A stretch of 35,816 nt of DNA, from the NCBI GenBank assembly GCA_003221655.1, contig QHSV01000096.1, forward strand, positions 1 to 35,816. The letters run 5' to 3'. Position 1 is the first letter of the stretch; each line of letters begins with the position of its first letter. This document shows, piece by piece, positions 13,272-20,548 of this stretch. The position numbers and the translations under genes were made by a program. Below the pieces are notes generated by a model. The model saw only the letters and a program-made list of their open reading frames with translations. It searched no databases and was not told the DNA's origin. This DNA comes from Candidatus Rokuibacteriota bacterium. GTDB lineage: Bacteria; Methylomirabilota; Methylomirabilia; Rokubacteriales; CSP1-6.

Positions 13272-14441
13272 ATGCGGCGTAGAGTCGTCTTCGTCGCCTG
13301 TCTTCTGCTCCCCTCTGTCGCGCTCGCCCAGCCGCTGTTCGGCACGCCGCAGGATCCGCTCGCAGGATCCCGGGTCTTCGGCGCGAAGGGCTGCGTCAAG
13401 TGTCACACGATCAACGGGGTCGGCGGCGAGGGCGCGCCTGATCTTGGCCGCATCCGGCGCCCGCGCTCGTTCTACGATCTCGCGACCGCCATGTGGAACC
13501 ACGCGCCGCGCATGGCCGAGCGGATGGCGGAGCTCGGCATTCCCAAGCCCCAGCTGGACTCGCGCGAAGCGGGGGACCTCGTTGCATTTCTGTTCACGGT
13601 CGACTACTTCGATCCTCCCGGCCGGGTGGACGCCGGCCGGCAGCTCTTCACGGAAAAGCGCTGTGTCGTCTGCCACCAGGTCGGCGGCACTGGCGGCGTC
13701 GTGGGGCCGAACCTCGATTTCCTGAAACAGTACGGCTCTCCGATCTTCCTCGCCACCGCCATGTGGAATCACGGTCCCCAGATGTCCGAGGCGATGCAAG
13801 CCAGGGGAATCGCGCGGCCCACCTTCAAGGACGCCGAGCTCCGAGACCTGATCGCCTACGTCAACTCGGCCTCGCCGGTGTGGCCGCAGGGGCCCCTGTA
13901 CGTCCTGCCGGGCCGAGCGACCGAGGGCCGCGTGCTCTTCGCGCAGCGGCGCTGCGCCGACTGCCATGGTGCCGCCGGTCAGGGCGGCAAAGTCGGGCCC
14001 GACCTCGCCGACCGCAGTCTTCAGCGGAGCCCGAGCCAGTTCGTCGCCGCCATGTGGAACAAGGCCCCGGCGATGCTCGAGGCGATGAAGCGCCGGGCGG
14101 TCCCGCTGCCCCGACTCCAGCCGGAGGAGATGGCCGACATCGTCGCCTACCTCTATTCCGTTCGCTATTTCCAGTCCGGCGATCCGAGGAACGGCGTGCA
14201 GGTGGCGGTGTCCAAGGGGTGTCTCGGTTGCCACTCGCTCCACGGAGAGCGGGGCAAGACCGCGAGCGACCTCGCGCGCGCCAAGGGACTGGACTCGCCC
14301 GCAGCCGTGCTCGCGGCGTCGTGGAACCATGTCGTCGTCACAGCGCCCCCGTCGGCGCGCACGAAGGCGCCGTGGCCCGAGCTGGGGGCCGCAGAGATGG
14401 CCGATCTCGTGGCGTATCTGCAGTCACTCAGGCGACCGTAG
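13272..14441 (+). CDS. Exported multi-domain cytochrome c with four CXXCH motifs (four tandem class-I-like domains)
   Basis: Signal peptide VVFVACLLLPSVALAQ; GCVKCHTI, RCVVCHQV, RCADCHGA, GCLGCHSL; repeated MWN[HK]xPxM and DL[VI]A[FY]L segments. Confidence 0.9.
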   Translation: MRRRVVFVACLLLPSVALAQPLFGTPQDPLAGSRVFGAKGCVKCHTINGVGGEGAPDLGRIRRPRSFYDLATAMWNHAPRMAERMAELGIPKPQLDSREAGDLVAFLFTVDYFDPPGRVDAGRQLFTEKRCVVCHQVGGTGGVVGPNLDFLKQYGSPIFLATAMWNHGPQMSEAMQARGIARPTFKDAELRDLIAYVNSASPVWPQGPLYVLPGRATEGRVLFAQRRCADCHGAAGQGGKVGPDLADRSLQRSPSQFVAAMWNKAPAMLEAMKRRAVPLPRLQPEEMADIVAYLYSVRYFQSGDPRNGVQVAVSKGCLGCHSLHGERGKTASDLARAKGLDSPAAVLAASWNHVVVTAPPSARTKAPWPELGAAEMADLVAYLQSLRRP

Positions 14442-14443
14442 TG

Positions 14444-15727
14444 ATGGGCGCCGCGCGTCCGACGATGCCTGCTCTCCTGTTCGCCGCGATCGTCGGGTGG
14501 GCGGTACCCGCCACCGCGCAGCCCACGCGGCAGGCGGAGGGCTGCGTGGCGTGCCATCTCGAGACCGGCGACGACCGGCTCGTGAAGCCGGCAAAGGCTT
14601 TCGCCGGGGACATCCATGCGGCGAAGGGTTTCGGCTGCGTCGCCTGTCACGGTGGGGATGCCAAGCAACAGGGGATGGAGGCGATGGATCGGGCCCAGGG
14701 CTACGTCGGCAAGCCCGACCGCCAGCAAGTCGTGCAAGTCTGCGGCCGGTGTCACGCCGACGCACGGTTCATGAAGCAATACAACCCGTCGCTGCGCGTC
14801 GATCAGGTCATCGAGTACGCCACGTCGGTCCACGGCCGTCGGCTCCGGGAGCTGAACGACCCGAAGGTCGCGGTTTGCACGAGCTGCCACCCCGCCCACT
14901 CGATCAAGCCACCCTCGGACCCGACGTCGAGCGTCCATCCGCTGCGGGTCGTCGACACGTGTGGCACTTGCCACGCAGATGCCAAGTATATGACCGGCTA
15001 CAGGATCCCGACTGACCAGCTGTCGAAGTACAAGACGAGCGTCCACTGGAAGACCATGTCGGCGAAAAGCGATCTGTCGGCCCCGACCTGCAACAAGTGC
15101 CACGGCAACCACGGCGCCGCACCCCCCGGAGTCTCCTGGGTGGGCACCGTCTGTGGCCAGTGCCACACCGTGATGGCGGAGCTCTTCACGAAGAGCCCCC
15201 ACGCGAAGGTCTTCGCCGCGATGGGAGTGCCTGGCTGCGTCACCTGCCATGAGAGCCACGCCATCCAGGAGGCTGGTGACGAGATGCTCGGACTCAGAGA
15301 CAAGGCCGTGTGCGCGAGCTGTCACTCGGCGTCCGACAAGGCCGGGAAGAGCGCGGCCGAGATGCGGGCCCTCATCGACTCGCTCAGGAATGAATCCGAC
15401 AAGGCGCGCGCGATCCTGCGCCAGGCGGAGCACGCGGGGATGGATGTCAGCCAGGCCCAGTTCGACCTGAACGAGGCCAAGGGCGCTCTCGTCAAGGCCC
15501 GCGCGGCCGTCCACGCGTTCGCCGTGGATGCCGTGAAGAAGGAGACGGACGCCGGGCTCGGCGTCAGCGCGAAGGCCCATGCCCGGGGTGTCCGAGCGCT
15601 CAGGGAGCTCCAGTTCCGAAGGGCGGGGCTCGTGGTATTCCTGGTGATCATCGTGGCGCTCATCGCCGCGCTTGTCCTCAAGATCCGCCAGCTGGAGCGT
15701 CGGCAGCAGTCACGAACGGGAGGCTGA
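14444..15727 (+). CDS. Membrane-anchored multiheme cytochrome c with nine CXXCH motifs
   Basis: CVACH, CVACH, CGRCH, CTSCH, CGTCH, CNKCH, CGQCH, CVTCH, CASCH; C-terminal helical region and TM segment [19 protein letters not shown]. Start at ATG 14444 (or GTG 14441); the longer ORF from 13493 is a frame artefact. Confidence 0.9.
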
Positions 15728-15742
15728 GCGCGGAGGCGCCAC

Positions 15743-16195
15743 ATGGACCAGACGCTCGAGGGGCTCACGACCCGACGAGGCTTCGTCAACTGGCTGCTCG
15801 GCACGAGCGCCGGAGCGTTCCTGCTCTCGGTGCTGTATCCGGTTGGCCGCTACCTGGTCCCTCCGAAAGTGGGCGAGTCCACGGCCGCGGCGGTCACGCT
15901 CGCGATCAAGCCCGACGACGTGCGACCGAACACAGGGTTGGTCTTCAAGTTCGGCAGCCGGCCGGCGATCCTCGTCCGCTCGCCGACGGGCGAGCTCCGC
16001 GCGTTCTCGGCCGTGTGCACCCATCTCAACTGCACCGTGCAGTACCGGCCCGACCTGAGCCATATCTGGTGCGCGTGCCACAACGGGCACTTCGACCTCA
16101 ACGGCCAGAACATCGCCGGTCCGCCCCCTCGGCCGCTGGACGGCTTCGTCGTCAACACCCGCGGCAACCAGATCGTGGTGAGCAAGAGCGCCTGA
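15743..16195 (+). CDS. Rieske [2Fe-2S] protein of a cytochrome bc/b6f-type complex
   Basis: N-terminal twin-arginine [12 protein letters not shown]; cluster motifs CTHLNC and CACHNGHF. Confidence 0.92.
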
Positions 16196-16197
16196 GC

Positions 16198-17292
16198 ATG
16201 GCCGTGTCCGAGACGCGCCACGGTAAGCTCCGGACCTGGCTCGATCAACGCATCGGGTTGGCGGACCTCGAGAAGCTCGCGAGGAAGAAGCAGGTCCCGG
16301 TCCACCGTCACGGCCTCTGGTACTACTTCGGCGGAATGACGCTCTTCCTGTTCGTCGTTCAGGTGGCGACCGGCATCCTGCTGCTGCTCTATTACCGGCC
16401 GAGCGCCGAGGAGGCGTACGAGTCCATCCAGTTCCTGATGGCCGAGGTCGAGTTCGGCTGGTTGATCCGCTCCATCCACGCGTGGTCGGCCAACCTGATG
16501 ATCCTCGCGTTGTTCGTCCATCTCTTCAGCGTGCTGCTCCTCAAGGCGTACCGCCCGCCGCGCGAGGTGACGTGGCTCTCGGGAATGGCGCTCCTGGGCG
16601 TGGCGCTGGCCTTCGAGTTCACCGGTTACCTCCTGCCCTGGAACGAGCTGGCCTACTTCGCCACGAAGGTGAGCACGGAGACCACGGGCGCCATCCCGCT
16701 GGTCGGTCGCTTTCTCCTCCGGCTGCTTCGCGGGGGCGACGAGGTGACCGGCGCGACGCTCACGCGGTTCTACGGTATCCACGTCGCCGTTCTCCCGGCG
16801 CTGGTCACGCTCGCCCTGGGCCTCCATCTGTATCTGGTCCATAAGCACGGGATGAGCGTGCCGCCCGGCGTCGAGCGCGAGGACGCTCCGCGCTTCATGC
16901 CCTTCGTGCCGAACTTCCTCCTGCGTGACGTCGTCGGCTGGCTCTCGGCCGTCGCCATCCTGGCGGCGCTGGCGGCCTTCCTCCCCGCCGAGCTGGGGAA
17001 GAAAGCCGACCCGTTCGCGCCGGCGCCGGTGGGTATCAAGCCCGAGTGGTACTTCGTGTTCATGTTCCAGACGCTCAAGTACCTCCCGGGTCACATCCTG
17101 GGTATCGAAGGGGAGATCGTCGGCGTCGTCGGCTTCGGCCTCGGCGGGGTGCTCCTCCTGCTCACCCCGTTTCTCGACCGTCGAGCCGTGCGCGGCGAGC
17201 CGAGCCCGCTGTTCACGTTGATCGGGATCGCATTGATCGTGTACGTGCTGGCGCTGACGTATCTTGGCTACACTGCCAGTCCCACGAAGTGA
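16198..17292 (+). CDS. Cytochrome b (b6-like, N- and C-terminal parts fused) of a bc-type complex
   Basis: [15 protein letters not shown] and [16 protein letters not shown] heme-ligand helices; [27 protein letters not shown] (PEWY motif). Confidence 0.92.
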
Positions 17293-17311: not shown

Positions 17312-18166
17312 GTGAGACCGAACCGCCCCAAAGCCGAGCCCTCTCCAGGCGCGCGTCACTGGCCCGTGGCGTCTCTCGCCGCCGCGGGACTCGTCCTATC
17401 CGCGTACCTGGCGTGGACCAGGTGGGCGGGCGCCGTCGCGCTCTTCTGCGAGAGTGGGAGCGGCTGCGACGTCGTCCAGGCCAGTCGCTACGCGGTCTTT
17501 CTCGGTGTCCCGACCGCGGCGTGGGGCGCGGTCCTCTACGCGGCGGTGCTCGCCCTGACTCTGGCGGGCACGACGCCCAGGCGCTGGACGGCGGCCTACG
17601 CGCTCGCGGTCGTCGCCACGGCGTTTTCCGCGTACCTCACGTACATCGCGCTCGGCGAGTTGCACGCCGTCTGCCCGTACTGCCTCGCCGATGCGATCAT
17701 CGCTCCGGCCCTGCTCGTGACGCTGCTCCTCCGCGGCCCGACCGGCGCCGGCCGCCGGTCGGCGGCTCGGGCGGGCCGCCTCGTTGCGATCGGCGCGTCG
17801 ATCGCCGTCGCGACCGTGATCTTCGCCGCCGGCGTCTTCGTGACGGGTGCGCCCACCGCTCCCTCGACATATCAGGAGGCGCTCGCGCGTCATCTCGCCG
17901 ACTCCGGTGCGGTCTTCTACGGTGCATACTGGTGACCCGCGTGCGGGGAGCAAAAGGCCCGGTTCGGGCCCGCGGCGGCGCTCCTTCCGTACGTCGAGTG
18001 CGATCCCCAAGGCCGCGGCGCCGCGCCGGCGCGGTGTGAGACTGCGGCCGTGCGTCGTTATCCGACCTGGCTCATCGCCGGACAGCGCTACGAAGGCGTC
18101 CTGACCCTGGACGAGTTGACCCGCGCCTCGGGGTTCGCCATCCGCGATGCGCCGCGCTCGCGCTAA
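17312..18166 (+). CDS. Candidate selenoprotein: VKOR domain fused to a thioredoxin-like domain, in-frame TGA (Sec) at 17933-17935
   Basis: VKOR core: FCESGSGCDVVQASRYAVFLGVPTAAWG, CPYCLADA. After TGA the same frame reads PACGEQKARFGPAAALLPYVECDPQGRGAAPARCETAAVRRYPTWLIAGQRYEGVLTLDELTRASGFAIRDAPRSR, then TAA at 18164-18166. The ORF track stops at 17935. TGA occupies the first CxxC position of the Trx-like domain (YGAYW[C]xxC). Confidence 0.75.
17945..17986 (+). promoter_or_regulatory. Putative bacterial SECIS hairpin downstream of the in-frame UGA
   Basis: Upper stem GGCCCG (17956-17961) / CGGGCC (17965-17970), loop GUU (17962-17964). Lower stem GGGGAGC (17945-17951) / GCUCCUU (17980-17986), separated by an internal loop. 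Confidence 0.55.
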
Positions 18167-18358
18167 TTGTTGTTGAAGGCGAAAGCATTTCCGTCACGCC
18201 TGGAGGAGCTGCTGCGGTTGGCGCAGCGTCTGCAGTGCGCGGCGACCGTGAATGACTACGCGCCGAAGCCGTCAGCCATCTCCTGATCGCGCGCCTTCCC
18301 ACGCGCCATTGGCCCGCCCCCTCCAACGATGATAAATAGGTTCGCAATGGAGGGGGAC

Positions 18359-19357
18359 ATGAGGTCGAAGCTCGCCTCGACGCTGATCGCGCTGCTGCTC
18401 ATGGCGCAGCACGCCCACGCCCAGCCGCCGCAGAGCACCGGGGTTCCCGCCGTCGTCGCGAAGGTGAAGCCGGCGGTGGTGAACATCGCGACGCGGCAGC
18501 TGAGCTACGACGCGTTGCTTCGCCCGGTTCCGGCCCAGGGCATCGGGTCCGGCGTCATCTTCGACGCGCGCGGCTACGTGTTGACCAACCATCACGTGGT
18601 CGAGGGCGCGCAGCAGATCCGGGTCATCCTGCCCGACGGCCGCGCGTTCCCAGGCAAATTGGTCGGCGCGGACCCGCTGACCGATCTGGCGGTGGTCAAG
18701 ATCGACGGCCGCGACCTCCCAACGGCGCGGCTCGGCGACTCCTCCAAGCTCGAGGTCGGCGAGACGGTCATCGCCATCGGCAACCCACTCGGGCTCGAAG
18801 GAGGCCCGACGGTGACGGTCGGCGTGGTCAGCGCGGTCGCGCGGTCGATCGAGGAGCCGGGCGGCGCGGGGCTCTACGATCTCGTCCAGACGGACGCGGC
18901 GATCAACCCCGGAAACTCCGGTGGCCCGCTGGTGCGGATGGCCGGCGACGTGATCGGGATCAACACCGCGATCATCCAGCAGGCGCAGGGGATCGGCTTC
19001 GCCATCTCGATCAACAGCGCCAAGCCGATCGTCCAGGAGCTGCTCGCGCACGGGCGCGTCGTCCGTCCGTTCATCGGGATCGTGCCCGTCAGTGTGACGC
19101 CGCAGATCGCCAGCGCCTATGACCTGCCGGTCGACCACGGCGTTCTGGTCGCCCGGCTCGATCCTCGTGGGCCGGCCGCGCGGGCGGGCATGCGGGCGGG
19201 CGACATCATCGTGGCGCTGGGCGGGCATCCCGTGAAGAGTCTGGGTGAGCTGCGGGTCGCGATCGGACAGCACAAGATCGGGGAAACCGTCGATCTAGCG
19301 GTCCGGCGCGAGAAGACGTCGGTGACCATCAAGGTGACGCTGGCCGAGATGCGCTGA
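18359..19357 (+). CDS. HtrA/DegP-like trypsin-family serine protease with PDZ domain
   Basis: Signal peptide; [31 protein letters not shown] catalytic motifs; C-terminal PDZ. ORF may start upstream at 18329. Confidence 0.92.
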
Positions 19358-19852: not shown

Positions 19853-20548
19853 ATGCCATACACACCACACGTCGAACAGCACTTCACCCGCGGCCTCGTC
19901 GTGAGAGACACCGTCATCGGCATGTCAGACGGTCTCACGGTGCCATTCGCGCTGGCCGCGGGGCTCACCGGCGCCGTTGACTCGACAACGCTCGTCGTCA
20001 CGGCCGGCCTGGCCGAGATCGCCGCCGGCTCGATCGCGATGGGGCTGGGCGGTTACCTCGCGGGGAAGAGCGACGTCGAGCACTACGCGAGCGAGCGCGC
20101 ACGCGAGCAGCTCGAGATCGAGCAGAAGCCGGAGGTCGAGGCGATGGAGGTCATGGAGCTTCTCCAGTTTTACGGCCTCACTCCCGAACAGAGCGCTCCC
20201 GTCGTCGACGCCTTGCGCCAGCGCCCGGAGGCATGGCGCGACTTCATGCTCCGGTTCGAGCTGGGGCTCGAGAAGCCCGACCCCCGGCGTGCCCTGACGA
20301 GCGGTGTGGTCATTGCCGCCGCCTACGTCGCCGGCGGGCTCATTCCGCTTTGTCCCTACATGCTGCTCCCGAGCACGGCAGCTGCTCTCTCGTGGTCGAT
20401 CGCCCTGACCGGCACGGCGCTGGCCGTCTTCGGCTGGATCAAAGGGCGCTTCACGGGCGCCTGGCCGCCGCGGAGCGCGCTGCAGACCGTGCTGATCGGC
20501 GGCCTTGCCGCTGCGGCTGCCTTTCTGATCGCGCGCGCTATCTCGTAG
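19853..20548 (+). CDS. VIT1/CCC1-family Fe/Mn transporter
   Basis: RDTVIGMSDGLTVPFALAAGLTGA, GSIAMGLGGYLAGKSDVEHY, C-terminal TM pair. Confidence 0.9.
   Translation: MPYTPHVEQHFTRGLVVRDTVIGMSDGLTVPFALAAGLTGAVDSTTLVVTAGLAEIAAGSIAMGLGGYLAGKSDVEHYASERAREQLEIEQKPEVEAMEVMELLQFYGLTPEQSAPVVDALRQRPEAWRDFMLRFELGLEKPDPRRALTSGVVIAAAYVAGGLIPLCPYMLLPSTAAALSWSIALTGTALAVFGWIKGRFTGAWPPRSALQTVLIGGLAAAAAFLIARAIS

Follow-up and report, generated by a model that had tools for sequence, protein, structure and literature searches.

We analysed a window of 35,816 nucleotides, the whole stretch of DNA presented above, in which positions 17312-18166 carry a gene for a VKOR protein fused to a C-terminal thioredoxin (Trx)-like domain (the gene and the features within it described below are on the forward strand). 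The frame is open on both sides of an in-frame UGA codon at 17933-17935 and, with the UGA read as selenocysteine (Sec), encodes 284 amino acids. A GTG start is likely, as judged from the Shine-Dalgarno-like sequence GGTGGGAG upstream. The VKOR domain was matched by PF07884 (E=1.2e-22), and a sequence search gave an end-to-end match to the Synechococcus VKOR (PDB 3kp9, E=5e-46 over 26-286). The AlphaFold2 (AF2) model of the product has a pLDDT of 85, and its top Foldseek matches are structures of Synechococcus VKOR; thus, the fold agrees with the result of the sequence search.

The VKOR part contains four transmembrane segments and constitutes the quinone-reducing domain. Its loop cysteines C46 and C52 (17447-17467), the equivalents of C50 and C56, are invariant in 19 aligned homologues, and the alignment columns of C121 and C124, which form the quinone-site CxxC (17672-17683), and of the second Trx cysteine, C211, are likewise invariant. 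The column of the UGA, residue 208, contains either the proposed Sec (U208) or Cys. U208 is the first residue of the motif UPAC, where it would replace the first cysteine of a CPxC motif, and it aligns with the catalytic Cys209 of the Synechococcus VKOR. The four redox cysteines and the Trx-like CxxC domain by which a VKOR-Trx fusion (PF07884) is recognized are therefore all present. The UGA is located after the transmembrane domain, just past the first strand of the Trx fold.

Directly upstream of the VKOR gene, the region 13272-17292 encodes multihaem cytochromes c, a Rieske protein and cytochrome b, and a similar cytochrome/Rieske cluster lies within ~10 kb of the Sec-encoding VKOR gene at five other loci (L099, L101, L103, L104 and L106). 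This arrangement suggests a functional link to quinone/cytochrome redox, and it is a reasonable inference that the role of the VKOR protein is tied to quinone turnover or to the redox maturation of extracytoplasmic cytochromes. The genes downstream of the VKOR gene encode a DegP/HtrA-like trypsin-PDZ protease and a VIT1-family protein (18329-19357 and 19853-20548), the latter of which is also found near the VKOR gene at one other locus (L094).

Downstream of the UGA, the RNA can form a hairpin at 17956-17970, GGCCCG-GUU-CGGGCC (which can also be written GGCCC-GGUUC-GGGCC). Its six base pairs join the 5' arm GGCCCG (17956-17961) to the 3' arm CGGGCC (17965-17970), and its apical GUU loop (17962-17964) starts with G 26 nt after the UGA. 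An earlier note on this DNA had described this stem and loop as a bacterial SECIS (bSECIS)-like structure, and its coordinates proved exact: in RNAfold, the 6-bp upper stem was present in every stretch tried, and the hairpin alone (17952-17974) has a free energy of -11.3 kcal/mol. The published bSECIS rule (PMC13188914) specifies an apical loop of 3-9 nt with G within the first two positions, an upper stem of 4-16 bp, a distance of 16-37 nt between the UGA and the loop, and a minimum free energy of -7.5 kcal/mol or lower. The VKOR hairpin falls within all four constraints, with a 3-nt loop that has G first (or GGUUC), 6 bp, 26 nt and -11.3 kcal/mol, and by every published criterion (PMC13188914) the putative element is of the known bSECIS kind. 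The earlier note had likewise named an early G in a loop roughly 16-37 nt after the UGA as a feature of bacterial SECIS models, and G is in the first position in all 21 UGA-containing homologues.

As a single sequence, the hairpin is no more than expected by chance, and its agreement with the SECIS rules weighs little in DNA of such high GC content. The free energy over 54-71 nt, compared with dinucleotide shuffles, gave z values of +0.9 to +1.2 in three of the four stretches and a mildly more stable value (z -1.5) in the fourth. A loose bSECIS model requiring at least 6 bp fits 20.5% of the 842 TGA sites in the window and its strict version 5.9%, in line with the caution of the earlier note that GC-rich DNA makes hairpins easily. 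No SECIS family was detected by Rfam scans of the window at gathering cut-offs or of 17900-18050 at E values up to 10. These ordinary statistics, including fold z-scores that for most stretches are positive or close to zero, are what would be expected if the hairpin were incidental, a product of the GC-rich codons of the conserved peptide KARFG[PS], with the UGA read otherwise or not at all. The significance of the hairpin derives instead from its conservation across homologues.

Homologues were collected from 95 genomes of the phylum together with nine loci from a general genome collection. In the column of U208, 21 genes, each from a separate genome and representing several families, have UGA, and 12 have a Cys codon. 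The sequence G GCC CGG UUC GGG (C/U)C is present in all 21 UGA genes without exception or indel, with 6/6 pairs formed and the GUU loop invariant, and 20 of them also match a longer, stricter pattern. In each of the 12 Cys genes, by contrast, at most three of the six pairs are possible, usually one, and RNAalifold found no consensus structure among them. The earlier note had held that TGA homologues without the hairpin, or Cys homologues that keep it, would count against a bSECIS; neither was found (21/21 versus 0/12 with more than three pairs). Because the hairpin is kept in the UGA forms and absent from the Cys forms, it cannot be regarded as a by-product of codon constraint.

The homologues were also compared for compensatory changes in 17956-17970, as the earlier note had proposed. 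Five pairs of the upper stem are invariant, the remaining pair alternates between G-C and G-U (changed in 6/21), and there are no double compensatory changes among the 21 UGA homologues. The support for the stem, as far as the alignment can provide it, therefore rests on synonymous invariance, this one G-C/G-U pair and the contrast with the Cys genes. The lower stem GGGGAGC/GCUCCUU (17945-17951/17980-17986), which had also been proposed, is complementary in this sequence, but only 55.8% of the homologue cells are paired, and we rejected it as a part of the element within 17945-17986. Additional helices predicted by RNAalifold (columns 10-20 and 39-70 of alignment A1) were also discarded; they cross conserved codons and show at most one both-side change.

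The conservation of the hairpin exceeds that expected of codons. When codons were compared at identical residues, no synonymous difference was found in the hairpin codons (+8 to +11 relative to the UGA) in 840 pairwise comparisons among the Sec forms, whereas 41% of such comparisons differed outside this region. The Sec forms that were aligned share 48-70% of their residues with the window protein. Among 82 four-codon windows, the value was zero only at +8 to +11 and in the overlapping window that starts one codon earlier. The Ala, Arg and Gly codons of the hairpin are fixed, as against an expected entropy of 1.2-1.7 bits. If synonymous codons were drawn at random according to the usage of the genes themselves, the stem would be kept in ~9% of cases per sequence, a figure that we did not multiply into a p-value because the sequences are related. 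The encoded protein also differs between the two forms. Residue U+9 is Arg in all 21 Sec forms and Leu, Met, Ile or Phe in all 12 Cys forms, and since the stem requires a CGG codon, and hence Arg, at this position, the hairpin has apparently altered the protein sequence by replacing a hydrophobic residue with Arg. Residue U+12 in the Sec forms is only Pro or Ser (CCN/UCN), either of which preserves the G-C/G-U pair. At the level of these sequence comparisons, the synonymous invariance, the fixed codons and the Cys homologues that lack both the hairpin and Arg rule out conservation through the codons alone, and we regard an incidental hairpin as very improbable.

The selection probably extends to the unpaired AAAA 5' of the stem, within CAAAA at 17951-17955. 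Its Gln codon is CAA in 18 of the 21 UGA genes versus a background of 8/102, the Gln codons elsewhere in these genes being CAG in 94/102. CAAAA is possibly recognized by SelB or required to be unstructured.

The genes required for Sec decoding were also found in the window's genome. SelB scored over the cut-off, and a SelA reading frame, which we identified as the ORF beside selB rather than by a family search, adjoins selB and is incomplete because the contig ends within it. The SelD of this genome (L078, 829-831; contig C256 of G000, near 829) itself has an in-frame UGA in the motif CAGU (CAGUASK), followed by a hairpin, CUCCUGGA-GAUC-UCCAGGAG, which fits the bSECIS model and has G as the first loop base, 21 nt past the UGA; SelD is thus predicted to be a second selenoprotein of this genome, one of a known type. 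Therefore, selB, selA and selD, the marks of a Sec-decoding genome, are all represented. No tRNA-Sec above the threshold was found in the genome's own assembly, in which the selAB contig extends 0.9 kb beyond selB on the upstream side. In relatives where this was checked (e.g. G003), tRNA-Sec lies ~2.7 kb upstream of selB, and its absence here is explained, although not proven, by the contig end near selA. A weak tRNA-Sec candidate on contig C342 (30.8 bits) was rejected for its many broken pairs. Among the 95 genomes of the phylum, SelB is present in 90 and tRNA-Sec over the cut-off in 79, and the phylum as a whole is predicted to use Sec. A search of the genome with the hairpin model returned the VKOR site as the only confident hit (next best, E=0.6). 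A candidate formate dehydrogenase alpha subunit of the same genome has no in-frame stop and so gave no second SECIS.

With the hairpin in 21/21 TGA homologues and the Sec machinery in the genome, the proposal of a bSECIS is well supported, and we conclude with high confidence that the hairpin is a bSECIS element, which is predicted to direct Sec insertion at UGA 17933; the homologues decide the matter, since the UGA forms keep the hairpin and the Cys forms do not. It is equally as improbable as an incidental hairpin that the UGA is a true or programmed partial stop that releases a free VKOR domain, with the hairpin regulating termination or message stability. The UGA does fall past the transmembrane domain, and stand-alone VKOR domains exist. 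However, the Trx domain 3' of the UGA is conserved as protein in the Sec homologues, including an invariant Cys and a PTW motif, a cut just after the first Trx strand would leave a broken domain in the AF2 model, and the Sec machinery is present. Partial termination beside Sec insertion is possible. A pseudogene or sequencing error, for which a single base change (TGC or TGT to TGA) at a Cys codon would suffice, has a negligible probability; it is refuted by recurrence, since 21 separate genomes from several families share this TGA. An in-frame UGA at a Cys position might also mean that UGA is reassigned throughout the genome (e.g. to Trp or Gly) or that a tRNA-Cys reads it, but this too is extremely improbable, because neighbouring genes end in TGA (the upstream cytochrome b gene at 17290-17292), the UGA occurs at a single redox-active position per gene (VKOR and SelD), the tRNA-Cys seen has the anticodon GCA, and SelA and SelB are present.

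From the bSECIS reading we infer Sec insertion, SelB binding, the direction of the enzyme, its substrates and the benefit to catalysis as follows. With the ribosome at UGA 17933, SelB with Sec-tRNA-Sec would bind the hairpin GGCCCG-GUU-CGGGCC, which lies 20-35 nt downstream, so that Sec is delivered instead of termination. The product would be a VKOR-Trx fusion in which the active site is Sec-Pro-Ala-Cys. If it acts like the Synechococcus VKOR, its Trx-like domain would oxidize substrate thiols, and the electrons would pass from this domain to C46/C52, then to C121/C124 and finally to a membrane quinone. Disulfide generation within one chain, from a Trx domain through the VKOR cysteines to quinone, is known for VKOR homologues (PMC4555120, PMC11208910). 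Selenium may speed up the reaction of the nucleophilic residue, the first of the Trx motif, and raise its acidity.

The comparison with known systems reveals both likenesses and differences. The bSECIS elements of E. coli fdhF, fdnG and fdoG and the bSECISearch consensus are likewise stem-loops in the coding sequence right after the UGA, but the VKOR hairpin has its own sequence, matches no Rfam family and, instead of a conserved lower stem, has a conserved unpaired AAAA on the 5' side of its stem. The Synechococcus VKOR-Trx protein (PDB 3kp9, 4nv2, 4nv5 and 4nv6) is alike in domain order, fold, the four VKOR cysteines and the Trx motif; the first Cys of its CPHC is replaced here by the proposed Sec (UPAC), and residue U+9 is Arg rather than hydrophobic. 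The DsbA-like, DsbG-like and Trx-like selenoproteins (UxxC) of bacteria, which Table 1 of PMC13188914 gives as Trx-fold proteins, also have Sec as the first residue of a thioredoxin-fold CxxC, but in the present protein this domain is fused to a membrane VKOR that would re-oxidize it.

The terms VKOR, PF07884, vitamin K and epoxide do not occur in an inventory from 2026 that covers 119 (sub)families of prokaryotic selenoproteins (PMC13188914). VKOR was likewise absent from the other selenoprotein literature examined, a VKOR phylogeny paper makes no mention of selenium, and no dedicated NCBIfam model scores. A 2026 groundwater-MAG paper (Cell Reports), which reportedly describes 63 selenoproteins in one Methylomirabilota genome, may list VKOR. 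The Sec-containing VKOR is therefore likely to represent an undescribed selenoprotein family, a self-contained membrane disulfide generator with a selenium-based Trx site, whose SECIS fixes four codons and exchanges a hydrophobic helix residue for Arg. If this is true, selenium chemistry extends to the enzymes of de novo disulfide formation, a family that includes VKORC1, the target of warfarin, and the standard reading of the gene truncates the VKOR-Trx enzyme at its active site. The gene would also provide a clean natural case of a coding-region RNA signal that dictates protein sequence, in which Sec and Cys orthologues can be compared directly.

The distribution of the VKOR-Trx gene is patchy, as would result from loss or transfer: the other eight genomes from the same genus (G001-G008) gave no match. 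The Sec form may have a single origin, of which a tree with long Cys branches gives no demonstration. One gene from the same taxonomic family (L028 of genome G010, 1501-2298) encodes a Cys-containing VKOR-Trx protein (CPHC) with Leu at the position of the Arg. It does not have the conserved hairpin, folds another, weaker one, and offers a natural Sec/Cys comparison.
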